This document shows positions 27,454 through 53,059 of a stretch of 57,710 nt of DNA, piece by piece. Position numbers and translations under genes: made by a program. Origin of the DNA: a virus; IMG/VR virus record IMGVR_UViG_3300000227_000004, positions 17,564-75,273 of that record; one strand, written 5' to 3'. The first letter of the stretch is position 1, and each line of letters begins with the position of its first letter. The notes under the pieces were generated by a model. That model ran no database searches. It was given only the letters and a program-made list of their open reading frames with translations, and was not told the DNA's origin.

Positions 27454-27465
27454 TATTTCCTCCTT

Positions 27466-27501
27466 AAAAAAATAGGGGAGGCGAACCTCCCCTATTTTTT
27501 T
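27466..27501 (-). terminator. Strong rho-independent terminator
   Basis: AATAGGGGAGG and its complement form a perfect stem around a CGAA loop (27482-27485), flanked by A- and T-tracts, ending the VWA/MoxR transcript. The stop codon of the gene at 27500 lies on its edge. Confidence 0.9.
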
Positions 27502-30679: not shown

Positions 30680-30731
30680 TACTATTTCTCCTAGCTAAAT
30701 TAAATGAGACTAACGACGTTTATCTTATAAC

Positions 30732-30764
30732 AAAAAAGCCCCCGAAATTTCCGGGGGCTTTTTT
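30732..30764 (-). terminator. Rho-independent terminator
   Basis: A seven-base-pair GC stem (30738-30744 with 30752-30758) around AAATTTC is flanked by six As and six Ts. It ends the transcript of the 639-residue gene and separates it from the MoxR-VWA genes. The tracts allow function in both directions. Confidence 0.9.
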
Positions 30765-30776
30765 GTTAATAAGGCG

Positions 30777-32714: not shown

Positions 32715-35700
32715 TTAAATTCCCAATTCTTCAAGCTCATCACAGAACTTTTTAAAGTTGGTATGTTGTGGCTCGAATGATAGTAATAATACTTTACTTG
32801 GTAAGTATCTATCAAATAATTTATCCAGCACTACTGGGTATCTCTTAGTTTGGTCCTTATGACTTACGCTTTTAGTGACTAGTTCCCTGACTTTTAGGGT
32901 TATTTCTCTGATAATTTGTTTAGCTACGCAGATTACCAGAGCACTTCGTAATATTCTCAGGATTGTCCCTTTGACACAGTCTTCTGTGTAGCGACCTGTG
33001 TTCAGGGATCGCGGTTCTGTCCCAGAGAAAACGCGCAGAATCGATGTGGTCACCACCCTTGCAAATAACCTATGATGGTGCGTGTCTAATTCATAAACGC
33101 GCCCCCCACATGTCGCGCTCATTAAGTGTCTTGTGATAGGCAGTGTCCTTAGGTGTCGAGGGTGTTGAGAGCCAACTAGCTCATCTCGTGCGGTGTTATT
33201 GACAATGGTCATCAAACCATTACTAAGTTCGGCTATTGGGGTGGAAACTACTGGAATTATTTCTTCTATAAAGGAACGAACCTTTTTGTGAAGGTCGTAA
33301 TTGTCTAACTGACTTGTTGAGTCTCCTTCTTCTTCTATAATCTCCTTGATACGAGATATATGGTTGGTAATCAGCACTGTTACTGAGTTAGCAGTCCATG
33401 CATCACCAAATACACTTTCATATGACGAACCTTCTGCGGGCCCTGTCCCTATTAATTTATTTTTTAATGCTTTTGATACTCGTCTAAGTTCGTCTCGTAC
33501 TATTCTGTATTCGAGTAAGACACTCCTGATGTCATCGGCAGATGCAGACCCGTCTCTGCTGCCTCTCCCCCTTAGAAATTGGCCTTTCGCATTAGCCAAC
33601 TTTGTCTGCCTACTTTCGTGTACTGGGAATATCACGGATATTTTTTCCGGAGAGAAGGTCGTTCCTTCGTTTGTAAACCCACCACCACTTGGTTTTGTTC
33701 TACGGATTTCTACGGGGGAAGAAGCCCATGCCGTATCGTGTATAGTTTCTGAGAAACCACTAGTCCCAGATGCCAGAGCCGTTGTGTCACTCTTCTCCAG
33801 AGAGTAGTATTTTTGTATGTAGTTCTTAGTTCCTGCACTTTCCTCACCGACATAGAAGGCGCTCATACCCCTCTGTTGCCATGTTAAAGTGTGCTGTCGT
33901 ACGTTGGGGTTTGTTTTTAGCATTGCATAACTCACAACCGGCAGTGGTCTTTTTACCAGTAATGATACTTGCTGCACCTTCTCGTTCAGGAGAGCTAGGT
34001 ACGCCGGACTCATTGCCATTAGTATGAAATTATGAATATGCTCTTTCATATCTTCTGCACTTAAGTCCAGTTGCTCGCCGTATGGCCCGTCAAGTATGTC
34101 GTACTTATCACCTCTGACTTGAATTCTTATTTTCTCAGATCTGAGCTCCCCACCACATTCTCGTCTTGGCCCATCCTGACATAGACTTACTCCGTAGGAG
34201 TATTCATAAATTCTTTTATGTCTTTTATATAAGGAAAGTAGCCTATCGCTATCTATGTCAGCAAACCATGACCAGTGTAGTATAACTATATCATCCACTA
34301 TGTCTATAAAGACATCTTTTAATATGCCTGCAGGTGTCGTAGACACCTTTACTCTCTCTCCTTTGGAAAGACCGGCAATCGACATCGTGGTAATTGGGAC
34401 TTTCTCCTCTTGTGAATGAATGTGGAGAAATATTTTCTCCCAATTTATTTTTGGAAGGAAGCATCTGGATTTTTCCAGCTCTCTATCCATTAGCGATTTT
34501 ATTGCTATATCGCCATCTCCGGTAGATAATGGTTCATCCTGGCTCTGCGAGGGAGGTGCACTGGAACTATCTAGTTCACCACCATTCCAGTAATCACCTA
34601 ATACGTCTTGCCTGCCTGCTACCTGGGCCCACATCACAAGGTTGCTCCCACCGCCATATGCTTCTAACACCTTGGATTTGGCAAAGTGGCTAACTGAATC
34701 ATTTGTCTTGTAGTCTGGTGGGTTAATCTCTCGCAGGTTTATTCTGGTGAAGACGTTATGATCTGCGTATATATTATTAATATTTATATCTGTGTCTATG
34801 TCCGGGAAATAATGGTAGTTATTTTCCCGAAGTTTTTTATTTAAATATGATTTTTGCCTTAGAACTTCCGCAGTAATCATACCCGCTAGGTCTGGCACAC
34901 CACCGTCCAGCCTACACCATCTTCGACTAACTTGTGGCATTGGCCTGTGCCCCCGTATCTCAGATGTGTGACCATGTGCTATCGCCCTCATGTCAGTCTT
35001 TGTCCACTCTCTATTGTTGAGCGAGGCGCGCCTGTCCGACAGCTGTTCATACTTGAATACAACATCTCCAGTTTTTGGGGCTTTGTATTCTAAAACATAT
35101 CTATCCAGTCCTCTTATTGCCATGTCAAGAGACGGCGTCTTTCTGTTGATCAAACAACATGTTTCATCACCGACATTTATGTAGGATATATCGACTACAA
35201 AATAGTCTAGCGACACTAAGGCGGCAGCACTGACTGATTCAACTATGTCTGAGGCCAGGTATAGTGTGTCCGGCATACACGCTGGCCCCTCCTGATACTT
35301 TGGCGTCCAATCTTCTATATGAGTCTGGTATAAAATGCCCGATCCAACGTAACTCGTCAGTGATGCGTGGGGGCTGTGCTGCACTGAATCTCTCGGGTAA
35401 GTTGAGAAAGAATAACCAGATAGCTGAGCTATTTTTGAGTTAACACTAAGTCTTAACACACTTCTATAATCGTTATCTCCAAACTTGGCACTGTTTATTT
35501 CCAGTAACTTCTCTTTTTTAATCTCATTTGACAAGTTGACCAGGTCCACTCCCTTACTTTCGTCATACTCAATATTTATTAACTTACTCAAAAAGGCCAC
35601 TGCATCATCCAGTGAAGTCGGGAGGACGGGCGTGATGCAGTCATCTGTGAAAGACTTCCATAATGAGTCGATCGTGTGTGGGATGTCGCCCTGCAGTTTA

Positions 35701-38537
35701 ACTGCGACCGTCATTCGATGTCTGCCAGAGATAACTGTTACAGGAAGAGCATCGATTTTTAATGTCTTAGGTCGCAACAACTCTTCGTAGAGAAGGTTGC
35801 AGATCCTGTTCTGGTCATAACATAATTCGTCATTCAATGCACACATTTTTGCCACAACTTTCGTCGGCAACCAATAGTTGTCCATGTAGGAAATAAACAA
35901 GCAGCTTATTTTTTCTACATCGACTACTTGTTTTTCTGTAGGGATGACCCCGTCGCATACTTTTTTGAGCAAATAAAGTAGGGAGACTGGTATAGTGCTT
36001 TGTGTGCTCAGTTCTGCTGCGATGATATAATTAAACAAGCTACTTTCCTTATCAGGAAAGAACTGTGATAAAAACTCTGGAAAGAGTTTACAAGTTTTCC
36101 TAAACTCATCGTGAAAATATTGGCAAGCAAACTCGAATAAATTCATAGGCAGTTTTTTGTGCACATCGGTTGGAAAAGTTTCATTTAGCTTCTCAGTCTC
36201 TGCTACGTGTGCCAAATGCCTGTCCACTATTATGTCGCGAACTTTATGATCTTGATACTCTTTTAAGATCTGTTGGTATTTGCTCTTTACAAAATTTATC
36301 TGAGAGACAAAAGCCTTGTCAAGGCTCTCATTCCCAATTAGTTTTGAGCCAGGGACCATGTCTGCGTGCTCGAGTATACTGTCCGCAGCTGCTAGTAGCT
36401 CCGGATCTGACGCCATCGCCTCAAGTCTGGCGATAGATATGTCGGAGAGGAGGTGAGCAACTGAGGTTTGTCGTGTACTCATCAGATCTATTTTTTGTTT
36501 GTAGCTTCTGTGAAGTTCACAGATAGTTGACAGCGAGTAAAACGAGGATCTGTATCTGCCTAAATATTGTCCAAGAGCTTTGTCATTAAAGGGAAGGAAG
36601 TGCCCACTGGATAGCAGGGATGTGAACGCCTTGTATGTATTTGTATATCCGTCAATCGTAGCGATAGAGCTGATGCACGCAGTAGTGTCTAATATTGCAA
36701 CTACATTATTGTTGGCTAAGTATCTAACCGCGGAAACGAATCGTTCAAAGAATAATTGTCTATGCGGACTATGAAGTAAGTTTTTCTTAGCATAATATAT
36801 TTTATTCATTATTTTGCCTAGGCAAGTGCCACTAATGTCACTATTTTGAAGGTCTGAATCTAAAGGAATTAAGTAGACTGATTTCTCGCTGTCCGGCAGG
36901 TTATTATTAGATTTGCGAATGGCGCTTAGGCTGATTTTTTTGATTTTTCGATCTAATGGCAGTACAAAATAATCTATACTATCTTCTATGATGTGCTCGA
37001 AAAGGGGGGCCTCCATGACACTGAGCACCAAGTCTTTCATAGAGGGGATTATCTCTGGAGATGTGATTAGCCCACCCATACCGAGATCTATGTTTAGTTC
37101 TAACCAATCTTCTATCTCTGCATCTTCACCCGTCAATGCGTATGATGTTGCAAAAGCGATGCCCCTTCTTGTTAGATACTTACTGTTATCTTTCCTCTGA
37201 ATAACTAACGGAATGTGCGCCCCGCTAACATCATCACTGCCCGAATCTTTATCAGAAAGCATCTCCATAATTTTTACTATTGTGACACCACGACATATGT
37301 CTATGTCCACGGGCAGATCGGCGTTTTCTGAAATTAAGCACATGAGTTTGTGCGGGCATCGGTCGCAAATGCCTTGTTCATTACGCTTTTTGTAGGTATG
37401 ATCTAAATTAACCACTCGATCGTAGTTATCTACGCCATCCCAGTAAAGAGAGGCTAAGGAGATGATTGTGCTGTTGTAGTCCGCAGCCTTATTATCTGGG
37501 TATTCAGTTACTAAACGTATATTCTCCTGTATCCCACTTAGGCTTTGTGAAAACAGGCTGCCGGCCTCCAGGATGAGGCTAATCTTAGATGGCATCTGTA
37601 TTTTTTCATCTAAGTACTCTTTTAGCAGACCGGGGTTAGCCCCGATTGCCTGGCATAAATTGCCGTGTTGTCCTTTTATAAATATGTCAAACACTTTTTT
37701 GTCTACAAAGAGCGCATCAGTGTCGTTTAGTACGTGGTTACTGGCTGTAAGGGGTTGTTCTATCCGACCCCAACATGTGCTTGAAAAGAAGTATGTCAAT
37801 GAATCTGACAGGATTCTAGTAAGGTTAAATTTTGCAAAGTTGTTGTTATTTATGATGTTTTCCGTAAAGCTGACACTTTTACTATCCCCAGTTGAATACT
37901 GCATGCCTTCTGGGTATAACAAATCGGCCATAGATGTTACCGGGCAAATAAATATAAAGGGCTGTCTAGTAATAAACGGGGCTAACATAGTTGCGAGGCC
38001 AGTATCTATATTTCCCTCCAGGATTATCTCAGTTCCATCAAGCCACTTGCTCCCTGCCGCCTTCGTTTGCTCTAGCTCCGAGAGGGGGGATGGGTTATCT
38101 CTGGATGATGAAGATCCACGTCGTTCTGGGGGAGAGCATAGAACAGATCCTGCGGGAGATATGAGCTTATATGTCAGCACCATACCTTTCCCAAAGTACT
38201 TTTTTACTATTTTCTCACTCTCCCGCTGTAATATGTCCATGTCCCTTGCCAGTGGTGCAGACGCGGCCTCCCCAGATTCTATCTCAGTATCTCTATACAA
38301 TGATATTGCAAGCCCCTTACCGCACTGAGTAATAAAGAAGTGACCTTCTTCTGCAGGACGAGAGTATGCTGCTATCGCCTCTTTGAACGAAGATTGGAAG
38401 GAGTAAGCAGTGCTGCATCCCTGCAGTGATTGGTGCTTAGCCGTGAATATATTTCTATCGTAATAGACAGAATTTAAAACCTCGTTTCTGTTTAGTGCGA
38501 CGGTTTTAAGGTCATCATTTGTTAGTATCTTTTTCAT
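32715..38537 (-). CDS. Giant protein (1940 residues), unknown
   Basis: An uninterrupted 1940-codon frame starts behind GGAG and overlaps the upstream small gene by 23 bases. It is a soluble, mixed alpha/beta protein without signal peptide or clear membrane segments. A CDRCPHKLMC cysteine set near residue 390 may bind metal, and a disordered Ser/Pro/Gln stretch lies near residue 1330. I find no Walker, polymerase, nuclease or protease motif, and no long repeats. Placement in the early/replication half argues against a tail protein. An unrecognised polymerase or large host-takeover or virion-injected protein are options. Confidence 0.75.
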   Translation of the reverse strand: MKKILTNDDLKTVALNRNEVLNSVYYDRNIFTAKHQSLQGCSTAYSFQSSFKEAIAAYSRPAEEGHFFITQCGKGLAISLYRDTEIESGEAASAPLARDMDILQRESEKIVKKYFGKGMVLTYKLISPAGSVLCSPPERRGSSSSRDNPSPLSELEQTKAAGSKWLDGTEIILEGNIDTGLATMLAPFITRQPFIFICPVTSMADLLYPEGMQYSTGDSKSVSFTENIINNNNFAKFNLTRILSDSLTYFFSSTCWGRIEQPLTASNHVLNDTDALFVDKKVFDIFIKGQHGNLCQAIGANPGLLKEYLDEKIQMPSKISLILEAGSLFSQSLSGIQENIRLVTEYPDNKAADYNSTIISLASLYWDGVDNYDRVVNLDHTYKKRNEQGICDRCPHKLMCLISENADLPVDIDICRGVTIVKIMEMLSDKDSGSDDVSGAHIPLVIQRKDNSKYLTRRGIAFATSYALTGEDAEIEDWLELNIDLGMGGLITSPEIIPSMKDLVLSVMEAPLFEHIIEDSIDYFVLPLDRKIKKISLSAIRKSNNNLPDSEKSVYLIPLDSDLQNSDISGTCLGKIMNKIYYAKKNLLHSPHRQLFFERFVSAVRYLANNNVVAILDTTACISSIATIDGYTNTYKAFTSLLSSGHFLPFNDKALGQYLGRYRSSFYSLSTICELHRSYKQKIDLMSTRQTSVAHLLSDISIARLEAMASDPELLAAADSILEHADMVPGSKLIGNESLDKAFVSQINFVKSKYQQILKEYQDHKVRDIIVDRHLAHVAETEKLNETFPTDVHKKLPMNLFEFACQYFHDEFRKTCKLFPEFLSQFFPDKESSLFNYIIAAELSTQSTIPVSLLYLLKKVCDGVIPTEKQVVDVEKISCLFISYMDNYWLPTKVVAKMCALNDELCYDQNRICNLLYEELLRPKTLKIDALPVTVISGRHRMTVAVKLQGDIPHTIDSLWKSFTDDCITPVLPTSLDDAVAFLSKLINIEYDESKGVDLVNLSNEIKKEKLLEINSAKFGDNDYRSVLRLSVNSKIAQLSGYSFSTYPRDSVQHSPHASLTSYVGSGILYQTHIEDWTPKYQEGPACMPDTLYLASDIVESVSAAALVSLDYFVVDISYINVGDETCCLINRKTPSLDMAIRGLDRYVLEYKAPKTGDVVFKYEQLSDRRASLNNREWTKTDMRAIAHGHTSEIRGHRPMPQVSRRWCRLDGGVPDLAGMITAEVLRQKSYLNKKLRENNYHYFPDIDTDININNIYADHNVFTRINLREINPPDYKTNDSVSHFAKSKVLEAYGGGSNLVMWAQVAGRQDVLGDYWNGGELDSSSAPPSQSQDEPLSTGDGDIAIKSLMDRELEKSRCFLPKINWEKIFLHIHSQEEKVPITTMSIAGLSKGERVKVSTTPAGILKDVFIDIVDDIVILHWSWFADIDSDRLLSLYKRHKRIYEYSYGVSLCQDGPRRECGGELRSEKIRIQVRGDKYDILDGPYGEQLDLSAEDMKEHIHNFILMAMSPAYLALLNEKVQQVSLLVKRPLPVVSYAMLKTNPNVRQHTLTWQQRGMSAFYVGEESAGTKNYIQKYYSLEKSDTTALASGTSGFSETIHDTAWASSPVEIRRTKPSGGGFTNEGTTFSPEKISVIFPVHESRQTKLANAKGQFLRGRGSRDGSASADDIRSVLLEYRIVRDELRRVSKALKNKLIGTGPAEGSSYESVFGDAWTANSVTVLITNHISRIKEIIEEEGDSTSQLDNYDLHKKVRSFIEEIIPVVSTPIAELSNGLMTIVNNTARDELVGSQHPRHLRTLPITRHLMSATCGGRVYELDTHHHRLFARVVTTSILRVFSGTEPRSLNTGRYTEDCVKGTILRILRSALVICVAKQIIREITLKVRELVTKSVSHKDQTKRYPVVLDKLFDRYLPSKVLLLSFEPQHTNFKKFCDELEELGI

Positions 38538-39077: not shown

Positions 39078-39659
39078 TTATTTACCAACTTTTCCAGGAA
39101 CTACTTTCCCACCGAAGGCCACTGCGTTATGCAAGAACAATATTTTTTGGCCCGGCTTAGGCGCAGGGGCAGAATGATAGTTCGGATGAATCTCTACCTT
39201 ATTTTCACTCTCTGTAAAAACTATCATGAATGGTTCTTCAACGTAGTTTTCTATGAGAATTTTTCTCTCGTTAGCGTCTGCCTGCGCAGTAGCCACAGGC
39301 TTCGGAACTTCTCTCGATCTGACTGGAGGTGCTGGGTCTTGAGTGGGGGGTGGCGCCTTTGCATACAGCCCCACACTCGGTATAGAAGTATTCTTGCAGA
39401 ATTTTGCAAAGGCGGCTTTGTCCATATCAATGGCAGCCAGTATTTTATCCAAGCTACTATCTGGGATATCTTCGAACATGCCCTCTAGAAAGGCCTTAAG
39501 TCTGAGGTCAGAAAGGTCAGCCACGTTGGCTAGGTCTTTCTGTGTAACGCTTTTACCGTCTTTTTTGTAGTTATTAACGAGTTTTTTAACTAGCTCACCG
39601 CGAGTTTTTATCTCTTTGGTGTTTCTTAGTATTAACCCTTCGTACCATTTTGCTGGCAT
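39078..39659 (-). CDS. Hypothetical protein with HTH-like N-terminus
   Basis: The product (193 residues) has a basic helical N-terminal region with SVTQKDLANVADLSDLRLK, resembling a helix-turn-helix. A Pro-rich linker (about 105-130) and a small beta-rich C-terminal domain (ILIENYVEEPFMIVFTE, KILFLHNAVAFGGKVVPG) follow. It starts behind AAGGAG inside the end of the helicase gene (28-base overlap). DNA binding or transcription control is possible but not demonstrated. Confidence 0.55.
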   Translation of the reverse strand: MPAKWYEGLILRNTKEIKTRGELVKKLVNNYKKDGKSVTQKDLANVADLSDLRLKAFLEGMFEDIPDSSLDKILAAIDMDKAAFAKFCKNTSIPSVGLYAKAPPPTQDPAPPVRSREVPKPVATAQADANERKILIENYVEEPFMIVFTESENKVEIHPNYHSAPAPKPGQKILFLHNAVAFGGKVVPGKVGK

Positions 39660-41341
39660 AAAATGCTCTCCTTGGTCAGTTTTGTTGTTTCGAGATCAAT
39701 GATTTTTGGCAAATCGGTCTGGATGTTCACGTCTCCTATTATGTAATGACTCCTGACCGAGAATGTTTCGATTATAGTCTTCGTTCTTTTCTTGCTGCTT
39801 CTCTCCAAGCCGCGGATTTTGTTGTCAACAAAATCTATGACAAAAGCTACCTGCTTCCCGTGCGCAGATCGCACCACCCTACCAGCACGCTGTATTATTG
39901 TAACAGAGCTTTCAAAAGGAGTTGGGAAAAGTATCGCGTCTAAATTGGGGATGTCAACGCCTTCATCCAAAGTTGTTGTTGCCAAAATCACTTTGTTTTC
40001 TTTTTTAATAGTATCTTCTAATATTTTTGCCCTAGCTGCGGCCTTAGTCTCTCCGATGATTGAGGCGTTTTTTATACCCATACTATCTAGGTTCATCTGC
40101 AACGCTTCAATTAGCCAAAGGTGATTTCCACAAACTACTGCAGAAGTTAGACCTTTAGAGGCCAAGACACGCAGCACGTTTATTACTGCACTAAATCTGC
40201 CAGGTTCAGCTAGAAGTTCTTTGTAAAACTCCGAGTTATGGAAAGAGAAATTATTTAACTTGTCCACTGAATCTGGGAATAAGTAGCCCTCGACATTTAC
40301 TTTTAATAAAGATATTTCTGCTAAGTGCTGAGACACACTAGATTTTCCCACCATCACTTTCCTTTCTGAGAAAAGACCTTCCAGCATTAATACTTGTCCA
40401 TCAGTCCTGTTTGGGGTAGCGCTGCAGCCATATACAACTGACGCACCAAGCGACGAAACTATGTTATAGTATGAGAACGTAGGAGCCACATGAGCCTCGT
40501 CCACTACGACCATTGACTGAGGACTCTTCATGTTTTCATCCCCGAAACCGAGGTCTCGCAGCCCCTCTTTGTGCTTAGATTTTATCAGAGGCGGCGGGAT
40601 TGGGAGGGATGCTACTTTTTGGCCTGTTATCAAATCTGGGACGGGCTTACTCAACACAATCGCTTCATTGTAATCTGTAGCGTTTGCTAAAGACTTAAAC
40701 GAGGCAATCAGTACGTTGGAATCTTTGTCCCCGCAGGTCAATGTTCCACTTGCCAACGTGCTGGGAGCCTTCCCTGTAACAATCTTTAGCGCCTTCTCCC
40801 ATTGCGGGATTAGCATTAATCTGTGACAAAGTATTATTGTTGGAAATGAGAAGTGTTTTATGGCGCCTGACATAGTCATAGTTTTACCACTACCTGTCAT
40901 GGCGACTAGCAATCCTCGCTTGTTTTGCACTAATGAGTTGACACTGGCCTGCTGGTACTCTCTAAGTATGTTTAGCTTTTGCGGAATTTTTTCAAATACT
41001 GACATAGTCTCCTGTGAGAGATCCTTGTATCTACCTGTGGAGTCATGCACATAAACTACTCGTGTCGATATAGATCTTAACACCTTCCGTAGCAGGCCCA
41101 ACGGCACTCCAGTGTATCCCATAACTCCCGGGCAGTTACTTACTGGAGTGGCGGCCATTAAGTATCTTGGTAAATAACTTGGCACTGTCCATCCCATAAC
41201 TCTGCTCATTTTCTCTGCATGAACTAATCTGGGGTTTTTCTCCATTAACACCTGCCGGGCCATTGCAGCAAGCACGGGCTCGTCAGATTCATCTTGAGAA
41301 AGTACATCAAAGCTATTATAATATATATTAATCCTGATCAT
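39632..41341 (-). CDS. SF2 DNA helicase
   Basis: The product (about 569 residues) is an ATP-dependent superfamily 2 helicase likely acting in replication or recombination, similar in layout to UvsW/XPB-type enzymes. Motifs are Q-like REYQQASVNSL, Walker A MTGSGKT, VVVDEAHV (DEAH box), YGCSATPNRTDGQ (motif III), then DEGVDIPNLDAI and QRAGRVVR (motifs V and VI). ATG 41341 is preferred because GGAG lies six bases before it; an in-frame ATG at 41353 lacks a ribosome site. The 5' coding region contains the promoter of the opposite-strand gene at 41354. Confidence 0.92.
   Translation of the reverse strand: MIRINIYYNSFDVLSQDESDEPVLAAMARQVLMEKNPRLVHAEKMSRVMGWTVPSYLPRYLMAATPVSNCPGVMGYTGVPLGLLRKVLRSISTRVVYVHDSTGRYKDLSQETMSVFEKIPQKLNILREYQQASVNSLVQNKRGLLVAMTGSGKTMTMSGAIKHFSFPTIILCHRLMLIPQWEKALKIVTGKAPSTLASGTLTCGDKDSNVLIASFKSLANATDYNEAIVLSKPVPDLITGQKVASLPIPPPLIKSKHKEGLRDLGFGDENMKSPQSMVVVDEAHVAPTFSYYNIVSSLGASVVYGCSATPNRTDGQVLMLEGLFSERKVMVGKSSVSQHLAEISLLKVNVEGYLFPDSVDKLNNFSFHNSEFYKELLAEPGRFSAVINVLRVLASKGLTSAVVCGNHLWLIEALQMNLDSMGIKNASIIGETKAAARAKILEDTIKKENKVILATTTLDEGVDIPNLDAILFPTPFESSVTIIQRAGRVVRSAHGKQVAFVIDFVDNKIRGLERSSKKRTKTIIETFSVRSHYIIGDVNIQTDLPKIIDLETTKLTKESILCQQNGTKG
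41294..41322 (+). promoter_or_regulatory. Consensus sigma70 promoter inside helicase gene
   Basis: On the + strand TTGAGA (41294-41299), a 17-base spacer and a perfect TATAAT (41317-41322) lie about 30 bases before ATG 41354. It runs against the helicase gene and supports the small + strand gene as real. Confidence 0.7.
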
Positions 41342-41353
41342 TGGAGACTCCAT

Positions 41354-41653
41354 ATGTTGTTAGAACTCATCAAAGCCGCTATCACCAAAGAAGCCGCTAG
41401 CAAACTTAATGCTATTACTAAGTCCATCCCGCTAAGCAATAGTCAGAGTAATAAAAAACTAGATAAAATATCGCCTCCTAAGCAACCAAAGGCCACTGCC
41501 CCGTCAAGCTTAAGTGGCATGGATCTCATGGCCCCTCCTACTAACCCACAGGGCAATATGAAAACTCCAGGAATGGCCTACGTAGACAACATGGTCTCGG
41601 CCCCAGCTCCAGCCTTAGTAACAGAACTTAAGGCAGTGAATGCCGGCAGTTAA
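41354..41653 (+). CDS. Lone + strand gene wedged in - strand operon
   Basis: The upstream frame extends to 41294, but ATG 41354 follows GGAG by seven bases and gives 99 residues. The N-terminal 25 residues form an amphipathic helix (LLELIKAAITKEAASKLNAI). The rest is Ser/Pro/Ala/Lys-rich and probably disordered (PPTNPQGNMKTPGMAYVDN). It exactly fills the gap between the helicase start and the polymerase stop. Its composition recalls the small virion proteins at the start of the window. Function unknown. Confidence 0.7.
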   Translation: MLLELIKAAITKEAASKLNAITKSIPLSNSQSNKKLDKISPPKQPKATAPSSLSGMDLMAPPTNPQGNMKTPGMAYVDNMVSAPAPALVTELKAVNAGS

Positions 41654-44256
41654 AAACTACTTAAGTATTTCTCAACCGACATAGTACTCCCCCAGTTATC
41701 TCCAACACTTATACCCACAGACATACTCAGGCATTCTGGGAAGCGATACTTAGTGTATAGTGGGATATCTTTTGTCATCCCAGCCTCTATGGCAGATATA
41801 GTCTGCAGAATATTATCTTTATTTTTTGGGCAGATCGCTAGGATTTCATCATGTATAAAGCCAATGATTTTTGCCTGAAAGGGCAACTCACGCATTCTCG
41901 CACTTGCGTATATGCCCCCCTGCTTGGTCATCTCGGCTGCCGATCCCTGTATAGGATGGTTTTGACTTCGTCTCAGGCACGACATCAGAGTTTTATAGTG
42001 CTCATACCCGTACTTTAGGCCCTCTATCGACAAGTCTTCTCTTACAAAGGGCTCACGACTGAAAAGACTATCTGCGCTATTTATTGGAATTGTAGGATCT
42101 AGTGGCGTGTAATACCGTCTACGGCCTAGGACATCTTCTGAGTATCCATTTTTAATTGCAAACGAATACTTCTCTCTGATCCAAGGTTTTATTCCTGGGA
42201 ATGCAGAAAAATAATCCTGGAATATCTGCTTAGCAGACTCCAAAGTAATCCCAGTTCTTTGAGCGAGAGTGGGCTCAGATCCACCGTAAACTAGCAAAAA
42301 CGTTACAGCCTTTGCAATGTTTCTTAGCTTAGGGAATTTTGCCTTAATTTCCCATATTGGCGTATCTCCAATTTGTGCAGCAAACACTTTACTGGTTACT
42401 AAATCATGAACTTCTATTCGTCTACAGTAGTCAGGTGTCCCAATGCTTGGGGTTATCTTTGGGCAGTGGTGTTTATCGTGAATTTTACTACACTTATAAC
42501 ACGGGTTATATGCCCTGAGAAGGTACTCATCAAGGCAGCTGGCTGCCAGTATAACTACTTCCTGCCCAGAATAGTCAACTGATATTATACAGTATCCGTC
42601 CGGGGGGATAATTGCTCGTCTTATCAAATCTGAAGCTTTTTTCGGCAAATTCTGGAGATTTGGGTTTGTACATGAGATTCTGCCGGTTTCAGCAACGGTC
42701 TGTAGAAAAGACGGGTGGACATTATTAGTGACTGGATTCAGCCTTTCTATGAATGAAAGCGTGTAGGTGCTTTCTAGCTTTTTAAGCCCCCGCCGCTCAA
42801 GTATCTTTCCAAGTATTGGATCTCCAGTCTTTTCGGCGAGCTTCTCCAGTGCCTCTACGTCCACTGATGGGCTTCCTGATCCTGTTTTCTTCTCCGGAGT
42901 ATAATTTTTGACAGTATACAGTTCGTTGCACAACTGGGCTGCTGAATCTACATTTATGCCGTTTAGCGCAGCTGACAATTCAACTCCCATTTCGTCCACT
43001 TGCTTTCTAAGCCGTAGATTCAATTCTGTCAAGTACTCCCGGTCAAGACCAAAACCAGTGAGTTCAGCTTCAGCCAATACTTTCAGAAATGGCATATCCA
43101 CATCTTTGAGGAGATACTTAAAGTCTTTGTACAATGGCCACATTTGGGCCATCATTAGCAGCGCCTCATTGCAACAGTCCTTCACACAATAATTAGCTAT
43201 CTTGTTTATGGGCACTGACGGAAGAGCTTTGAAGAAAGATTTCCCCTCTTTCCACTCCTCAATCATAGGAAAGCGATCGGCCACCGAACTCCCTAAGTTA
43301 AACCGACCACTCAGTCGGCAGTCTAGTATGTATTCACCTATCATTGTGTCTAAAAGCAAATCTAATGATACTGAGAAATTAGTTTTAAAGAACTGGTACT
43401 CAAATTTAGCGTTATGTGCTACTATTTTTCGCTTCACCAATATTTCATGCACAAATTCGTGGATTTTTGACTTAGGTAGTATCTTTGCGTAAGTTATGTC
43501 TTCGGTTGACTTAATGCCTTCTGAGGAGAATGATGCCTGGTAGTCTAGCTGCCCCCCGATAGGCTGCTTACACGGAATGTAAAAACCTTCAGATGCATCT
43601 ACGCAAAGCCCGATACCTAGTATGTCACTAGTATATGGGTCTAGTCCAGACGTTTCTATATCTATAATTATGGGGTATGCTTTCTCTGTAATTTTTGAGA
43701 CTAGCTTGGATAAAGTGGCGTCGTCATGCACTACATGCACTTTACAAGGCATCCCCTGTGCTGTTAGTACGTATTTCTCAATTATGTCTTTAATTATTTT
43801 TCCAATTTTTTCCAGATCAACGTCACTAGCTACCGCACCGGACGCCAGCAAAGATTCATAGTCTCGTTTTATTAAATCTTCCAATAAATAGCCCTCTGTG
43901 GCATTTTTAGCGTATAGCACTGTTTCTTGGGCAAGAGCTGCGCTACCATTGGTTGAGAAGACAGTCATTGTGTGTGGTGCGCTCTTGGCGTTAATAAATC
44001 GGTTATATTTAAGTGCTGCGTTTAAATCGCTGATCTTTGGCTGAGATAAATGCCTGCTGTTAGGCACCAGCAGGTTAAATAGTCGAGATATGTCCGCCAA
44101 ATTTTTTGGAAGGGAGGCGGAAACAAGCTGTATGACTCTGTCCAATCCTGCCGGATATGGCAGAAAGCCAAGCCCAGGAACAGACACGGTAGTGCGCGGC
44201 ACCACCCCCACTTCTACCCGGTGTCTTGGCCTCTTAATTATGTCTGACAATGTCAT
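41650..44256 (-). CDS. polA: DNA polymerase, family A, with 3'-5' exonuclease
   Basis: The product (868 residues) is the likely phage replicative polymerase. Exonuclease motifs are IDIETSGLDP (D199, E201), HNAKFEYQFF and YCVKDCCNEA. Polymerase motif A is SVDYSGQE (D561), motif B RNIAKAVTFLLVYG (645-658) and motif C FIHDEIL (H802, D803, E804). Between motifs A and B about 35 extra residues contain CYKCSKIHDKHHC and a later C611, a possible zinc site not usual in this family. No 5' nuclease domain is evident. It starts behind AAGGAG, overlapping the reverse transcriptase stop by four bases. Confidence 0.97.
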   Translation of the reverse strand: MTLSDIIKRPRHRVEVGVVPRTTVSVPGLGFLPYPAGLDRVIQLVSASLPKNLADISRLFNLLVPNSRHLSQPKISDLNAALKYNRFINAKSAPHTMTVFSTNGSAALAQETVLYAKNATEGYLLEDLIKRDYESLLASGAVASDVDLEKIGKIIKDIIEKYVLTAQGMPCKVHVVHDDATLSKLVSKITEKAYPIIIDIETSGLDPYTSDILGIGLCVDASEGFYIPCKQPIGGQLDYQASFSSEGIKSTEDITYAKILPKSKIHEFVHEILVKRKIVAHNAKFEYQFFKTNFSVSLDLLLDTMIGEYILDCRLSGRFNLGSSVADRFPMIEEWKEGKSFFKALPSVPINKIANYCVKDCCNEALLMMAQMWPLYKDFKYLLKDVDMPFLKVLAEAELTGFGLDREYLTELNLRLRKQVDEMGVELSAALNGINVDSAAQLCNELYTVKNYTPEKKTGSGSPSVDVEALEKLAEKTGDPILGKILERRGLKKLESTYTLSFIERLNPVTNNVHPSFLQTVAETGRISCTNPNLQNLPKKASDLIRRAIIPPDGYCIISVDYSGQEVVILAASCLDEYLLRAYNPCYKCSKIHDKHHCPKITPSIGTPDYCRRIEVHDLVTSKVFAAQIGDTPIWEIKAKFPKLRNIAKAVTFLLVYGGSEPTLAQRTGITLESAKQIFQDYFSAFPGIKPWIREKYSFAIKNGYSEDVLGRRRYYTPLDPTIPINSADSLFSREPFVREDLSIEGLKYGYEHYKTLMSCLRRSQNHPIQGSAAEMTKQGGIYASARMRELPFQAKIIGFIHDEILAICPKNKDNILQTISAIEAGMTKDIPLYTKYRFPECLSMSVGISVGDNWGSTMSVEKYLSSF

Positions 44257-46775
44257 ATTTTGTCACTCCTTTCCACAGACATCATAGCTGCGAGACTCTC
44301 TATTTCCCTAATCTGAGCTTTAGTTACAGATGCTGCCATATCTATGAGACCATACGAAAGCTCTTTTATCTTGGGATATATCTTCTCCCGAATATCACGA
44401 ACTATGTTTTCAAACATCAGGTAAAGCTCCGAGTATTTATTATGGGAAACAGATACGGCCCAGGCAATCTCCCCCCGAAGGACATTCACAGTGTGGGGAA
44501 GTCTCAAATGAGAGAGCCTATCATACCCTTTCGGAAAATACTGCTTTATGTAGCTATCTGATGGGCAGATTAATCCAGTTGTGTCCATCCATTTAAGATA
44601 CACTGCTGCATATTTTTTTAAATTATGAATCTTTGCCCTCAAGTTTCTTGACTTGCCCCTTGCCAGTCTAATCGTTACCCCAGGCTTGGGGCCATCATAC
44701 TCAAGAAAAGTAATACCGAACACCTCACGCTTTTTCGTCCCTAGTATAAACTTAGTTTTTTCCGGAGAAATATGTAAATTTAGCTTACTAAATGCTTTCT
44801 TAATAACACTAATTATCTTTGACTTTACCTCGGTGTCAGGGGCTTGATCTAGTATTACTGTCCAGTCATCTACATAAACACGCACGTGCCCCCCTAGACT
44901 GGCCAGATCTTTTGATACTGAGTCAGCCAAATAAGTCGCCACATAGTTAGCCAACACCGGACTCGTTCTAGTGCCCTCCGGCAATCCATCTGTGTGGCTC
45001 GTCATCAAATCCAAAGTCAATTCATACCCAGTCAGTATGCCGGCTTCTACCTCTTTCCAATAAGAAATATCGTTAGTAAAATCACAGAGCTCCGTCCTGT
45101 TACTTCTAAAGATATGTACCAGATCTGTAAGCGTTGACAGTGGCAAATCAACCGAGTAATATCTGCTCCCCACTTCTAAGATTAGTTTACTTGCCGTAGT
45201 TCGGTGTGTGCATATTCTCACTTTTAAGTTGTCTGGGGCTGTGAGTAGGGAGAACCCAAGCCCCGGCTCCGATAAATAAAGATATTTATCTCCCGCATAG
45301 ATATACTCAGTACCTGCTATTTCCACCGACTTCAGCACTTCTAGTTGACCCTCCTCTGTAGTACTCAAGTAGGTCAATGTTACGTTTGCATTCGGAGTGC
45401 AGGTATCTGTCCTCTGCTTAGTATCTAAATAAATAAGCTTATCGGCATGTGAAAACTTAGATATATTTGGAACTATTGATATATGATAATATTTATCCGC
45501 TAGTAGCGCAGTGTAATCTTTACCTTTTATTGTGAAAGTGTGTGACCCGTTACTCGCATCCAGCACTGTGCATACGCTTCCATATGGGACTCTATGTGCT
45601 GATATTTTGGGCACGTCCGCACTTGCAATTTGCATCGGGTGAAAGTCACTTAGGTCATCTTTTGTAGGATCAGTGTCCAGCCTTATAATAAATCTTTGTC
45701 CAGGTGAGACTGGTGCCCCGGGGAGTGGGAAGTCAGCTGCGCAATCTTTCGGCAGAATTTTTGGGCAAGGGGAGATCAACAGCAGGCTTTTGTGCATACT
45801 CAAGACTATTGTGTTCATGTAGTTTGCAATATGTACTAAGTGTGCCTGAAGTGCTGCCTTTCCATCTTCTGTCCACCTCCCTATCTCTGGAACTAAGCTC
45901 GACACTTTATCCATTGAGAAGGCCCTGCTATTCATTACTCCAAACTTAGATGAATGTAGCGTCTTTAGAAGAATGAGAAGAAATATTACTGGATTTACTT
46001 GCAAAGCCTGAGCTCTGCACAGCAAGGCCAGCTTGGATAAGTATATGCTGATGTGTAGCAGGGCAGCCCCTACTTCTGACGTAGATGAATCTACTCCCAA
46101 GGATAATGATTCGTTCTTAAAGAGAGAAGAGCCCTCACAATCTATTACCGGCACCGAGTAGTCACTCAATGAGTCAGGACTGAAGACTATTTCGTCAGGA
46201 CTAACGTGTTGTAATATTGTGGGCTGTGGGGAAATGCGGGTCCGAAACTTATCGCTGGCCGTAAGGAGTGAGGAAAATAATATCAGTGCCTCTTTTTTAA
46301 CAACGTAAGCCATGGACTTTATAACGGCAGGCCTTTTTGTTTCCCTAAAATAACTCTTAATATCAGTCTTAAAGACTGCCGCTTTTTTGTATGCCAGTCT
46401 CGGTATCTCTGTGACGTGCCGGCCGGCAACACCTCCGACAATCTCTTCTGGTATCAGGTTGGCAAATAGAGCCGAGTTCGGGTTCACTGTTAGAAATTTT
46501 TTGCTTTCGAGCACTCGTAAGTCTTGCGCAGTCGTCGCATCTCGTCTTTTTATGAGAGTAGAGAAACCTTCCGTGCGCCAAAACTCTCGCAGATGGACCC
46601 TTCGTGCGAAGACGGTCTTTTGATGATTTTTAAAAGTTGTGTGGCCTATCTCCAAAAGTTCACACGGCTTGAATATGTATCTAAACTTAGTCCCATTAGA
46701 TTTTGGTATCTTGCTTATTTTATATAGAGATCGTTTTATTTCTGGAGTCATTATTCGTGCCATTTTCTTTCTCAC
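44253..46775 (-). CDS. Reverse transcriptase with large palm insertion
   Basis: The product (840 residues from GTG 46775; ATG 46763 is also plausible) has the RT order IPKSNGTKFRYIFKP (residues 23-37, motifs 1-2), FKTDIKSYFRET (D138, motif A), GLPEGTRTSPVLANY (597-611, motif B), VYVDDWTVI (634-637, YVDD, motif C) and LNLHISPEKTKFILGT (motifs 6-7). Motifs A and B, usually about 60-80 residues apart, are separated by about 460. Thus some 400 residues, partly beta-rich, are inserted into the palm. Basic C-terminal helices follow. It lies between a 226-residue unknown and DNA polymerase. Template and product are unknown; retron and DGR signatures are absent. Confidence 0.85.
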   Translation of the reverse strand: MRKKMARIMTPEIKRSLYKISKIPKSNGTKFRYIFKPCELLEIGHTTFKNHQKTVFARRVHLREFWRTEGFSTLIKRRDATTAQDLRVLESKKFLTVNPNSALFANLIPEEIVGGVAGRHVTEIPRLAYKKAAVFKTDIKSYFRETKRPAVIKSMAYVVKKEALILFSSLLTASDKFRTRISPQPTILQHVSPDEIVFSPDSLSDYSVPVIDCEGSSLFKNESLSLGVDSSTSEVGAALLHISIYLSKLALLCRAQALQVNPVIFLLILLKTLHSSKFGVMNSRAFSMDKVSSLVPEIGRWTEDGKAALQAHLVHIANYMNTIVLSMHKSLLLISPCPKILPKDCAADFPLPGAPVSPGQRFIIRLDTDPTKDDLSDFHPMQIASADVPKISAHRVPYGSVCTVLDASNGSHTFTIKGKDYTALLADKYYHISIVPNISKFSHADKLIYLDTKQRTDTCTPNANVTLTYLSTTEEGQLEVLKSVEIAGTEYIYAGDKYLYLSEPGLGFSLLTAPDNLKVRICTHRTTASKLILEVGSRYYSVDLPLSTLTDLVHIFRSNRTELCDFTNDISYWKEVEAGILTGYELTLDLMTSHTDGLPEGTRTSPVLANYVATYLADSVSKDLASLGGHVRVYVDDWTVILDQAPDTEVKSKIISVIKKAFSKLNLHISPEKTKFILGTKKREVFGITFLEYDGPKPGVTIRLARGKSRNLRAKIHNLKKYAAVYLKWMDTTGLICPSDSYIKQYFPKGYDRLSHLRLPHTVNVLRGEIAWAVSVSHNKYSELYLMFENIVRDIREKIYPKIKELSYGLIDMAASVTKAQIREIESLAAMMSVERSDKI

Positions 46776-47400
46776 TTTCGTTTGTTATTATTTTTGATAA
46801 ATCCGCCAATCCGATTTCTAACGGAAAATACGTGTTTACTCCGGTCCCCAACTGTTTTGGGTCTGTCGGTCTGGCGTAATTTATGGCTGCGTATAGGCAT
46901 GCCTCTGGGTATCTATCTATGTCCGTCCTTATTATGTATTTCAATGCGGGATTCGCTTCCCACATTTCCCTAGGTAACTGTGCTGGGTGTTTGACACCAA
47001 CCCTGGACGCTCTGTATACTTCCCTCAGCACTATTGCCCCTGTGTTGGTGTATATTCCTAGACACTTTAACAGACCGATTACTAAGGCTATATAAGTCAG
47101 TGGATCAGTTTTTGCTTTCACTGTGGTTAACTTTGCACACATGACTGCATCTTCAGAAATAGGTATCGAATAATAATTTCTGAAGAAATTCAGATGGACT
47201 AGTAGCAGCTTTTTAAAAGTAAATCGTTTTATTCCAAAAAGCCTGACTAATTCCACTATGCACATTGGGGAAGTGCTCTCGGCCACATACTTGGCAAGAG
47301 TTTCTATGGACTTGTCTAAACTGGATCTGCTTAGATCGGTGGCATACTTAATTTTGTATCTTCCATTAGTTAACTTCCGAATCTCTTCCGAATATATCAT
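46720..47400 (-). CDS. Unknown protein coupled to reverse transcriptase
   Basis: This 226-residue protein starts behind GAGGAG, overlaps the primase-helicase gene by 35 bases upstream and runs 56 bases into the RT frame downstream. It is mainly helical (VELVRLFGIKRFTFKKLLLVHLNFF, PLTYIALVIGLLKCLG), moderately basic, with a polar Asn/Glu/Lys tail. No motif is recognised. The tight coupling on both sides makes it a candidate partner of the RT or of the primase-helicase. Confidence 0.6.
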   Translation of the reverse strand: MIYSEEIRKLTNGRYKIKYATDLSRSSLDKSIETLAKYVAESTSPMCIVELVRLFGIKRFTFKKLLLVHLNFFRNYYSIPISEDAVMCAKLTTVKAKTDPLTYIALVIGLLKCLGIYTNTGAIVLREVYRASRVGVKHPAQLPREMWEANPALKYIIRTDIDRYPEACLYAAINYARPTDPKQLGTGVNTYFPLEIGLADLSKIITNESEKENGTNNDSRNKTISI

Positions 47401-50400
47401 CTATACTCTCCTCAATTGGCTTGACTTCTCCGGAAAAGATTATATCGTTGGACGTAATACCAGACAGCTTTCTGTCACGTAAGTCTCTGGCTAATTTGTA
47501 CAGCTTGGCAGTAGGTTTATATGTGCCTCCAGTATACTCTGTGTCTAGCATATTATCTGCGGCCAGAAGTTGCAGGACTTTAATTACGTCATTTCTGTTG
47601 AGTTTAAGGTGCATTGCAAGTTCTTCGGCCCTTATCCTGTTAACTTGATTTATGTGAAAAATTATTTCGGTAATGCTCACGGTAGTTGGTATCTGGTGAC
47701 GTGCCAGCACTCTTGAAAAATACTGAAGCCAATCGGCAGGAACTTCTACTTTTCTACGGCATTCTGCTGCCTCTTCATCTAATGCTACTGATTTTGAACC
47801 ATAAGTCCCGTCCAGCAGGGCATACGCATTTTCTACGTCTTCAATTGTCACAGTTACTTTAACAAAATCGTCACTTCTCATGTTAAACATCGCCATGGAT
47901 GCACTAATTCTAGCAACTTTCTCATGAGTATCCGTGGAAATTAGTGGCAGTGTCGTAGCTGCAGCGTAGTACTTATCCATTAGAACCATGGCTTTTTTTA
48001 ATATTTCCCGGGTAACTTCCGGAGGAAATATTATTTCTGCGGGGCTCCTGGTCCAGGACCACAAAAGCCCCGTCCTAACTACGTCCTGCGGCACAGTGAG
48101 TTTAACATCTGTCACTTCTTTTAAGATTACACTGGCGTCAACTTCATCTTTGAAGAAGAACTGAAATATATCAAATCTTCTAGCATCAGGCGTTTCCATA
48201 ATCTCCATTATTGCTTGACAGCCACGTTTATAAGTATCCATTGATAGGCCTTTTGCCGGATTTGCCGAAGCGATTAAACGTACTCGGCAAGCTTTAGACC
48301 CTCGCTTAATTTTTGTAATCATGGCTCTGCCGGTAGACCTTATTTCTCTTAAAGCACTTAAGGCGAGTGTGTTACTTTGCAGCTTTTCCATTTCATCGAT
48401 GAAAACGATTGTTTTGTCACTAATAGGCAACAGCCCCCAGGATATATATTGGTGGTTGTCATACTTATCCACGCCCCCAATTAAGCCGGCAGTAGTAGCA
48501 TTCCCCCCGCTTACGTGGTTATACGTCCCAAGGAATTTCAAAATATGTTCTGGCATTTTTGATTTGCCCTGTGAGGAATCTCCGATGAAGCATGTCTCCA
48601 CCCAGCCTCTGTCTAGCATACGGCCGTTAAACTCAATCTGTAGTGGACTGAATAGGGTGAGCATTACAGTGAGTGCCTCTCTGTATCTACCCCTAATGCC
48701 GCAAACCTGGTCTGCCATTGAGTATACGAGCTCCTGCTTATCCAGAGCCTTGTAAGCTTTCAGCTGCTCCAGCTGTTCTGGAGTAGGATTGAATTGGTCT
48801 AAATTACCTAACATTCGTTCTACTTTAGAGAAGACGAAAGTAGTTTTTTGATCTTTCGGATGTGGATGGACTCGGCCAATTCCAATATAGTCAGTCGACA
48901 CATTTATGCTGTGGCCATTAAAATATGAATAATATGTCCTAGGCTCTATGGAGAACCGGCTTTTAAATAGCATGTTTCTCATAACTTCATCCGCAGATGA
49001 TATCATGATGGGCTGTACATGGTGGTGGGATTTTTCAGTCATTTTTAGAAAAGCCGGCTTTACACACGGTATTCTAGCAAATCCCATCAGAACCCTCTTG
49101 TTGTTTGCCTCAGGGATACCTATACATGAGATCAGGTCTTTCCCATCAGACGAAACTACATATTTAGTCTCACCCGATTTATTATTAAAATCGCAGATGA
49201 CTTTATTGCCAGTCCTGGCTGGGCACCCTTCCGAACAAGTAAATATTACTTCTTTAGGAACATGGTATGAGCCACCAACTAATGAGTCAGCTTTGAATGG
49301 GACTGATATTGACTTACCTATTACTTGATACTGCTCAACTTGCTCAACCAGTTCAAGCCTTTGATCTACCTTTGATTTAGGGTATGCGAGTTTTATGGGG
49401 GACAAGCCTCCCCGGTCTATGATCTCAGCACAATTCTTGGCGCAAATATGGATGTTTTGCATTCTGGCGCAAGACATCGGAATGTACTTCTTCTGATCTC
49501 TCGCATGCCGTATCATCTTTTCAGTTTCTTCTTTGCTGTAGTCAGAGCAATTAGCGATAATCTCATGAAGTTTTTCAGCACCGCTCTCACCAAAATGTAT
49601 GCAAAAAGTCATCAGACAGACTCGCTCTTCGTGTAGTAAATGATGCTCTTTCTGTGCCTTGTTAATTAATCTTTTCAGCGCATTGCATCCGCTCAGCATG
49701 CTACTAATAGAAGCACACGTAGGGGGCTTGGATAAGTCCTTTATCTCTCCTTCTGGAGAATAAGTTCCCACGTTTAATTGTATATTGTTTATTTTGTCTA
49801 GGAGCTCTCCAATGTCATCCATCGAAAGCTTTCGTGTCTTTTTTAGGTAATCAAATTGAGATAGGGGTGGCTTATTCGCATCCTGGAACAGATCTACGAA
49901 ATACCCTCGTTTACCAGTAACTCGGTGCACGCCTAGTGGGAGCTTTATCAAGCTTCCATATGCTCCCCCTGACGCCATCTGTTTTGGAAAAACCTCTAGA
50001 GATTTAGGTAGTTTTGCTTGAGTTTTTATAATAGACGCGAAGTTGTACACGGTCTTGACAGGTATGGGTCTGTCGAAAAATATGTCTAAATGCCAGCCTT
50101 TACTGCCTGAGAAAGAAACTAAATACATGTCGTTGGTTATGCCAACAGAATTCAAGTAAATAATAAAGTCTCTAACTTTGTTTTCTAGCACTAACAAAGC
50201 CTGGCTAAACGCCTCATCTCTAGCCTTAGAGTCCGTTATCTGCTCGATCCCCCGTCGGTCTTCGATTCCAAGGTCGAAGTCAAAGGTGCAATGCAGGCAG
50301 CAATCTTTACTGGGCTCTTCAAGTATAATCGTGTAAACACCAAGAGTTCGGCTCCCATCTAAATGACTAATTAGAGCCTCATCGAAATCTGCGTTCGGGC

Positions 50401-50551
50401 CTTCTATTTTATTGTACCTGGATTTGTTATTCTCGTTAGGGGGGAGTTGCTCGGCGTAGCAGTGCTTATTTGTTTTATAAAAGCTGCTGAATAGCGAAAC
50501 ATTTTCCGGAGTTAAATCTAGCTGCTCATAAAGAACGGTACCATCCGTCAT
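47366..50551 (-). CDS. Primase-helicase: AEP primase fused to MCM-like AAA+ helicase
   Basis: The product (1061 residues) combines priming and unwinding. The N-terminal archaeo-eukaryotic primase shows CTFDFDLG (D91, D93), SGSKGWHLD (148-156) and KLPLGVHR (203-210). A cysteine domain follows (C289, C361, C370, C374, with HHLLHEERVCLMTFCIHFG), like the Fe-S or zinc region after such primases. The helicase has Walker A GDSSQGKS (657-664), Walker B TIVFIDEMEKL, sensor 1 LIASANPA and an arginine pair R791/R792, close to MCM. A winged helix (LAMHLKLNRNDVIKVLQLL) lies near the C-terminus. Start is behind AGGAG. Confidence 0.87.
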   Translation of the reverse strand: MTDGTVLYEQLDLTPENVSLFSSFYKTNKHCYAEQLPPNENNKSRYNKIEGPNADFDEALISHLDGSRTLGVYTIILEEPSKDCCLHCTFDFDLGIEDRRGIEQITDSKARDEAFSQALLVLENKVRDFIIYLNSVGITNDMYLVSFSGSKGWHLDIFFDRPIPVKTVYNFASIIKTQAKLPKSLEVFPKQMASGGAYGSLIKLPLGVHRVTGKRGYFVDLFQDANKPPLSQFDYLKKTRKLSMDDIGELLDKINNIQLNVGTYSPEGEIKDLSKPPTCASISSMLSGCNALKRLINKAQKEHHLLHEERVCLMTFCIHFGESGAEKLHEIIANCSDYSKEETEKMIRHARDQKKYIPMSCARMQNIHICAKNCAEIIDRGGLSPIKLAYPKSKVDQRLELVEQVEQYQVIGKSISVPFKADSLVGGSYHVPKEVIFTCSEGCPARTGNKVICDFNNKSGETKYVVSSDGKDLISCIGIPEANNKRVLMGFARIPCVKPAFLKMTEKSHHHVQPIMISSADEVMRNMLFKSRFSIEPRTYYSYFNGHSINVSTDYIGIGRVHPHPKDQKTTFVFSKVERMLGNLDQFNPTPEQLEQLKAYKALDKQELVYSMADQVCGIRGRYREALTVMLTLFSPLQIEFNGRMLDRGWVETCFIGDSSQGKSKMPEHILKFLGTYNHVSGGNATTAGLIGGVDKYDNHQYISWGLLPISDKTIVFIDEMEKLQSNTLALSALREIRSTGRAMITKIKRGSKACRVRLIASANPAKGLSMDTYKRGCQAIMEIMETPDARRFDIFQFFFKDEVDASVILKEVTDVKLTVPQDVVRTGLLWSWTRSPAEIIFPPEVTREILKKAMVLMDKYYAAATTLPLISTDTHEKVARISASMAMFNMRSDDFVKVTVTIEDVENAYALLDGTYGSKSVALDEEAAECRRKVEVPADWLQYFSRVLARHQIPTTVSITEIIFHINQVNRIRAEELAMHLKLNRNDVIKVLQLLAADNMLDTEYTGGTYKPTAKLYKLARDLRDRKLSGITSNDIIFSGEVKPIEESIDDIFGRDSEVN

Positions 50552-52396: not shown

Positions 52397-52498
52397 AAGC
52401 TACACCTTTACAATGTGTTTGTTTTGATTGTGCAACGTTGTCCTCCCAATATGGATTTAGGGCGATTTGGTCCTGAGATGTTTTGATCCTGGTAGTCT

Positions 52499-52570
52499 TG
52501 TTCTCCTTCCACAGTCGGGTGACTAATAATTACCTTTTATTATTAGTCATCCGACTGTGGAGGAGAACAA
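52499..52570 (-). ncRNA. Hairpin unit 1, candidate structured RNA
   Basis: Arms of about 32 bases (52499-52530 and 52539-52570) pair with one bulge and one wobble around an eight-base loop. The promoter-like TTGTCA (52597-52602) and TAAAAC (52575-52580) on the - strand place transcription start at the hairpin base. No T-tract follows, so the RNA may run on into the nuclease gene leader. Confidence 0.45.
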
Positions 52571-52575
52571 ACAAG

Positions 52576-52618
52576 TTTTAAAGTCATATGCGTCGATGAC
52601 AACGCTAAGTTCTAAAGT
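52576..52618 (-). repeat. Direct repeat 1, promoter-like
   Basis: First of three copies of an element of about 43 bases with core ATATGCGTCGATG (+ strand). On the - strand it contains TTGTCA, a 16-base spacer and TAAAAC. Copies start 214 and 189 bases apart. Confidence 0.8.
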
Positions 52619-52691
52619 GTGTATATATTGTCTTTCACTACATGTGCGTGTCTCGTGGTTCCAATTTTGTTTTTATTCAAACGTCTACCTG

Positions 52692-52786
52692 GATGGTCCA
52701 ACCGTCGCTGCTGTCATGTTGGTCGTACTTCTCGGATCGTGATCCAGAGGACGATCAACATGACAGCAGCGGAGGTTTGGGCCATC
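52692..52786 (-). ncRNA. Hairpin unit 2, long near-perfect stem
   Basis: Two arms of about 45 bases centred near 52739-52740 form a long imperfect stem with only a few mismatches and bulges (longest uninterrupted match CGCTGCTGTCATGTTG). On the - strand TTGCCA (52811-52816), 16 bases, and TAATAT (52789-52794) precede it. Confidence 0.45.
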
Positions 52787-52795
52787 GTATATTAT

Positions 52796-52836
52796 GTTTA
52801 TATGCGTCGATGGCAACGCTAAGTCCTATGTGAAAG
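52796..52836 (-). repeat. Direct repeat 2, promoter-like
   Basis: Second copy of the repeat, identical to the others over the GCGTCGATG core and CCTAT part, but diverged in the AT-rich end next to the hairpin. Confidence 0.8.
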
Positions 52837-52847
52837 ATTTTTTTGTT

Positions 52848-52976
52848 AAAAAAAATCGGCAATCTTACCCTGTTCTGGCCGGCCTTACACTTTGCGCGGG
52901 GCAGACCTTACATCTGATTGGGGTCTACCTTAAGCCTGTATGGGGCAGCGGTTGCCCCAGGTTGGGATTGCCGATT
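52848..52976 (-). ncRNA. Unit 3, candidate small RNA with T-tract
   Basis: On the - strand the 5' AATCGGCAATC (52966-52976) pairs with GATTGCCGATT at the 3' end (52854-52864), immediately followed by eight Ts (52848-52855). Inside is a strong TGGGGCA / TGCCCCA hairpin (52941-52959). Upstream are TTCTCA (53000-53005), 16 bases, and TAAAAT (52978-52983). Promoter, paired ends and terminator-like tail together look like a complete RNA gene of about 125 nucleotides. Confidence 0.55.
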
Positions 52977-52978
52977 AA

Positions 52979-53025
52979 TTTTAAAGTCATATGCGTCGAT
53001 GAGAACGCTATGTCCTATTTGTAAG
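52979..53025 (-). repeat. Direct repeat 3, promoter-like
   Basis: Third copy of the repeat, just downstream of the nrdD stop. It carries TTCTCA, a 16-base spacer and TAAAAT on the - strand. Confidence 0.8.
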
Positions 53026-53059
53026 ATTACTGTCCTTATAACGTATTTTTCCGTTTTTT

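Follow-up and report, generated by a model that had tools for sequence, protein, structure and literature searches.

The DNA analyzed here is part of a 75,273-base IMG/VR virus record; positions 17564-75273 of the record form the window, i.e., the whole stretch of 57,710 nucleotides to which all coordinates refer unless record positions are named. On the minus strand, the window carries a replication operon in the order primase (AEP-TOTE)-MCM-like helicase, a 226-residue protein, a reverse transcriptase (RT), a family A DNA polymerase (PolA), and an SF2 helicase. The features of the operon, of the RT gene, and of a non-coding region upstream are as follows, with the basis of each assignment in brackets.

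47366-50551, minus strand: primase of the AEP-TOTE type fused to an MCM-like helicase (Pfam)
46720-47400, minus strand: 226-residue protein of no known family, overlapping the start of the RT gene and the end of the primase-helicase gene (profile searches, sequence)
44253-46775, minus strand: reverse transcriptase gene, 840 codons, open throughout, from the GTG at 46775
46665-46709, minus strand: RT motifs 1-2 (IPKSNG...R32...KP, residues 23-37) (weak collinear RT-core HMM match and sequence)
46260-46454, minus strand: RT block 1, residues 108-172, with motif 3, motif A (KTDIKSYF, D138), and the next helix (profile matches and model)
45015-46259, minus strand: insertion of about 415 residues (approximately 173-587) at the RT3a/IFD position, no known family (profiles, spacing, excision)
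45780-46076, minus strand: part of the insertion predicted to be helical, residues 234-332 (structure prediction, low confidence)
45141-45578, minus strand: part of the insertion predicted to be beta-rich, residues 400-545 (structure predictions, low confidence)
44427-45014, minus strand: RT block 2, residues 588-783, with GLPEG (597-601), YVDD (634-637), motif D, and the start of the thumb (profiles and model)
41650-44256, minus strand: family A DNA polymerase with 3'-5' exonuclease, its start overlapping the RT stop (Pfam, sequence)
39632-41353, minus strand: SF2 helicase downstream of PolA (Pfam, PHROGs)
52397-53059, minus strand: non-coding region with three copies of a repeat of about 51 nucleotides, each followed by a strong hairpin (repeat search and RNA folding)

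A previous sequence-only reading of this DNA had described the RT gene as translationally coupled to the DNA polymerase and to the 226-residue ORF, and the overlaps with both neighbors are real. The RT stop codon and the PolA start codon share the sequence ATGA, an overlap that implies coupled translation, and an AGGAG lies nine bases ahead of the PolA ATG. At its other end, the RT begins within the 226-residue ORF, which in turn begins inside the 3' end of the primase-helicase gene. The longest frame opens with the GTG at 46775; an ATG four codons further in, at 46763, is better spaced, is preceded by a purine-rich stretch, and is the likelier RT start.

Judged by its sequence, the minus-strand ORF at 46775-44253 encodes a genuine RT. 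The Pfam RVT_1 profile matches residues 595-690 only (E 2e-10, 41.2 bits, curated cut-off 29.6), PHROG_2825 ("polymerase") matches the protein in two stretches (E 7e-22), and 56 PADLOC models match at E values up to 10, those among the matches listed being all RT models. The family searches place the gene among RTs and in no non-polymerase family. Residues 1-177 alone also match RT models (PHROG_2825, 7e-5; RT_UG4, 6e-4), at profile positions that come before those matched by the C-terminal part, as expected. An RT-core HMM, which we built from 72 RTs fetched from genomes, gave three collinear matches: a very weak one to motifs 1-2 at residues 14-42, one to motif A at residues 128-172, and one running from motif B to the thumb at residues 588-783. 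The N-terminal part scored 13.1 bits against this HMM, whereas 2000 shuffles reached 7.6 bits at most. The protein has motifs 1-2, A, B, C, and D in the right order, with the catalytic aspartates.

The RT is probably catalytically competent, as the aspartates of motifs A and C, the glycine of motif B, and the lysine of motif D are all kept, and F143 supplies an aromatic residue at the dNTP-selecting position. The second residue of YVDD is beta-branched, and neither YVDD nor YIDD occurs in any of the 72 nearest RTs. Going by its core sequence, the enzyme belongs to the retron/group II/UG supergroup.

The core is split by a long insertion. The distance from motif A to motif C had been read as about 500 residues instead of about 100, and the comparison bears this out: D138 and YVDD lie 496 residues apart, against 75-96 in the 72 relatives. 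From motif A to motif B, we counted 460 residues (39-60 in the relatives), and the spacing from motif B to YxDD is 36 here and in 72 of 72 relatives. When residues 171-580 were removed in silico, the split RT matches became one continuous match. The RVT_1 match, which had covered profile positions 116-205, now ran unbroken over positions 35-205 and rose from 41.2 to 47.5 bits, and PHROG_2825 rose from 79 to 89 bits. The insertion of about 400 residues reported between motifs A and B is real, with a length of about 415, but its place can be given more closely: the two RT blocks meet within about six profile positions, past the helix that comes after motif A and directly before motif B.

No match for the 430 residues around the insertion was found in Pfam, PHROGs, PADLOC, or PDB sequences, apart from a weak PDB sequence match to a C2 domain (E 0.2), which we rejected. 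The insertion had been called partly beta-rich and unrecognized. The latter holds for the family searches, and the former for the last ~150 residues, whereas the first ~200 residues are predicted to be partly helical, all with low confidence. In both GC content and codon usage, the insert equals the operon, which makes a recent insertion or a chimeric assembly join unlikely, and both were rejected. We also rejected an intein, as no terminal HN-C/S/T was seen by eye, and a paralogue of other contig genes, of which the contig contains none.

A single-sequence AlphaFold prediction of the RT reached a pLDDT of 34. A second run, on an alignment of 54 rows made up of motif-A fragments and motif-B-to-thumb fragments from fetched RTs, produced a model with a pLDDT of 71-97 over most of residues 100-160 and 600-720, about 62-86 in the thumb, and a pTM of 0.47. 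Block 1 has a pLDDT of 71-94 over most of its length, and the insertion has a low pLDDT. The best 38 PDB matches of the second model are all RTs, with retron Eco8 first (5.5e-8), followed by other retrons, G2L4, group II, Abi-P2, UG15, DRT4, and DRT2 among further matches; telomerase is match 39. The model supports the RT fold. As to whether D138 and YVDD share a site, both blocks are well modelled and match RTs in the PDB, but the alignment was selected from many for putting motif A on D138, and the model is therefore no independent proof of one active site. Full-length RT alignments placed motif A at residue 562, a wrong assignment that arises because MAFFT avoids the long gap. Motif-A fragments aligned by themselves fell on D138 with no steering.

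Among profiles, the core is matched best by those of retron St85/type VI and group II RTs. With residues 171-580 excised, the best curated retron matches are PADLOC RT_VI (62.7 bits) and NCBIfam retron St85 (58.7 bits, far below its cut-off of 235), and group_II_RT_mat scores 56.8 bits against a cut-off of 300. Retrons of type VI/St85 carry YADD or YCDD, in contrast to the YVDD and the 415-residue insertion of this RT. This RT lacks the retron residues NAxxH and VTG, which 68 and 69 of the 72 relatives, respectively, possess, the VTG count also accepting close variants. There is no space for an msr-msd upstream, where the RT starts inside the preceding ORF, and no Rfam match to one. Template and variable repeats of diversity-generating retroelements (DGRs) were not found in the 75-kb contig, and group II intron RNA gave no Rfam match at the gathering threshold, with the ORF packed between overlapping genes. 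The marks of retrons and DGRs are thus missing, but the claim that this RT is unlike those of retrons and group II introns was too strong for the catalytic core.

The telomerase IFD likewise lies between motifs A and B, and the TERT IFD is far shorter than the insertion here. To our knowledge, the insertion of about 415 residues would be by far the largest at the RT3a/IFD position. In group II-like RTs, RT3a sits directly before motif B (PMC12337344). The G2L4 RT of Pseudomonas, which acts in double-strand break repair, also has an insertion at this place and, like our RT, comes without intron RNA; it is among the structural matches of the model, and its YIDD shares with YVDD a beta-branched second residue (PMC12337344). 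The short RT3a plug of G2L4 blocks the active site until substrate binds, and the enzyme works in DNA end joining (PMC12337344). However, that plug has 21 residues versus about 415 here, and G2L4 is a bacterial housekeeping gene, whereas the RT here is a gene of a phage operon.

We searched for homologues with the insertion in viral contigs, genome contigs, phage and plasmid records (tblastn), and 398 Bacillota genomes, and found none. Weak matches in phage records were rejected as homologues, being RTs of retron-like and group II-like kinds. A single divergent query is poorly served by automatic peptide patterns, so the searches are weak evidence of absence; some contig scans used a hand-made alignment row, solely to widen the peptide pattern. 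With no second member found in searches from which very close records were excluded, the "new RT class" of the sequence-only reading rests on one sequence.

The setting of the gene was compared with related replication modules. In nine viral relatives of the primase-helicase, no RT lies between that gene and PolA, so the RT appears to be an optional extra in a module of a known kind. Bacillus phage vB_BboS-125 has a primase-helicase, a PolA, and a UvsW helicase of the same kinds as here but, unlike this phage, no RT anywhere in its genome. Genomes of PolA or primase relatives yielded three RTs at other places, all of ordinary size and outside the replication module. A PolA is already encoded by this phage, and the closest primase-helicase/PolA relatives lack an RT at this position, so the RT would not be essential to this kind of replisome. 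The proposed role in replication is suggested by location, and the same module works without an RT in relatives. UG10 RTs are fused to a primase domain (PMC8934634); there, RT and primase are physically linked, whereas here they are separate genes in one operon, and UG10 is absent among the 25 PADLOC matches listed for this RT.

Upstream of the window, at record positions 5133-11243, the phage encodes a single-chain RNA polymerase of 2036 residues with fused beta and beta' parts. Its nearest relatives are those of Vibrio phages D69/D181/D148 and Salmonella phage Arash, with 30-33% identity to those of D69 and Arash. Searched over their full length, the Arash and D69 genomes contained no RT.

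We tentatively favor the reading that the protein is an active accessory DNA polymerase of phage replication or repair, regulated or tethered by its insertion. The phage would have added an RT of the supergroup to its replication operon as an accessory polymerase, which may extend ends on which PolA works poorly, namely short primers, RNA-DNA junctions, or broken 3' ends. Located at the RT3a/IFD site, the insertion is expected to flank the active site and the template-primer duplex, where it could serve as a gate or as a docking platform; docking might bring the RT to the primase-helicase or to PolA.

A farther-reaching version, which we consider doubtful, is that the RT is the first of a class of working phage-replisome parts, in which a very large RT3a/IFD domain would couple the RT to the primase-helicase or to structured RNAs of the phage, and reverse transcription would help a DNA phage to replicate its genome or maintain its ends. 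The roles of prokaryotic RTs known to us are in mobile elements, diversification, CRISPR spacer capture, defence, and one case of repair (G2L4). An RT in a tailed-phage replication operon would, if the reading is true, be a new job for the enzyme, and a split-core RT among DNA-copying genes hints at uses beyond mobile elements and defence. The insertion would be a natural experiment on RT control by the loop that gates G2L4 and serves telomerase.

The RT could instead serve phage competition or defence in the manner of Abi or DRT enzymes, its cDNA or untemplated DNA blocking superinfecting phages or countering host defence, with the operon site being incidental. The core also matches the Drt2, Drt3a, Drt4, UG4, UG17, UG26, and AbiA models, and the structure model matches Abi-P2, UG15, and DRT4 structures. 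Abi RTs that synthesize DNA without a template, some of them prophage-borne, are known (PMC8934634; PMC11077055). However, the named defence families score far below their cut-offs (Drt2, 29.2 of 390 bits; Drt3b, 12.6 of 350; AbiA, 19.0 of 250), and the retron VI score is above that of any DRT model. Such RTs are usually found in cargo regions or morons, accompanied by an effector or a non-coding RNA, whereas this gene is stitched into the primase-helicase/PolA module by overlapping start and stop codons. We regard a defence role as unlikely.

Quite unlikely, in our view, is an RNA-templated polymerase that works on a dedicated phage RNA in the manner of telomerase or a retron. The elements at 52397-53059 are the sole local candidates for such RNAs, as a candidate link only. 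Their repeat core, TTAGCGTTGNCATCGACGCATAT, occurs in three copies and nowhere else in the contig, and the hairpins that follow differ in sequence and have RNA fold z-scores of -4.9, -9.9, and -12.1. The insertion at the telomerase IFD position would suit this reading, as would DRT10/UG17, a bacterial RT linked to TERT that carries out telomerase-like repeat synthesis (PMC12632851). However, unlike TERT, this RT has no more than candidate template RNAs, it scores lower against UG17 than against retron VI, and it lacks the retron NAxxH and VTG. The repeat-hairpin region lies about 5.6 kb upstream of the RT gene, and the elements, which have no Rfam match, resemble promoters with terminators, or a replication origin, just as much. 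They are possibly small RNA genes, an operon leader, or a replication origin; in two of the three repeats, a weak sigma-70-like promoter sits at an identical position, no more than expected by chance.

We give little credence to the RT domain being a scaffold or relic with the insertion doing the work. The insertion is half of the protein, and as no relatives were found, the catalytic residues could not be put to a conservation test, but the aspartates, glycine, and lysine of the motifs are all in place. An ordinary DGR, retron, or group II intron RT is extremely unlikely, for despite the best core profiles being those of retron St85/type VI and group II RTs, the contig showed no template/variable repeats, Rfam gave no matching RNA, and the upstream space and the NAxxH and VTG residues are missing.

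Several other genes of the phage were noted. The window also encodes an anaerobic ribonucleotide reductase, NrdD (53060-54817), and a 4Fe-4S single-cluster protein that is probably its activase (54811-55410), a pair that suggests an anaerobic host. At record positions 11963-13273, the phage encodes an ATP-dependent DNA ligase joined to a phosphoesterase domain of the LigD type, and at 13510-14319 a factor of the sigma-70 family. Downstream of the replication operon lies a 1940-residue protein (32715-38537) with no Pfam match. Isolated palindromes of 40-57 bases at 16182-16238, 27464-27503, and 30724-30773 are probably terminators.
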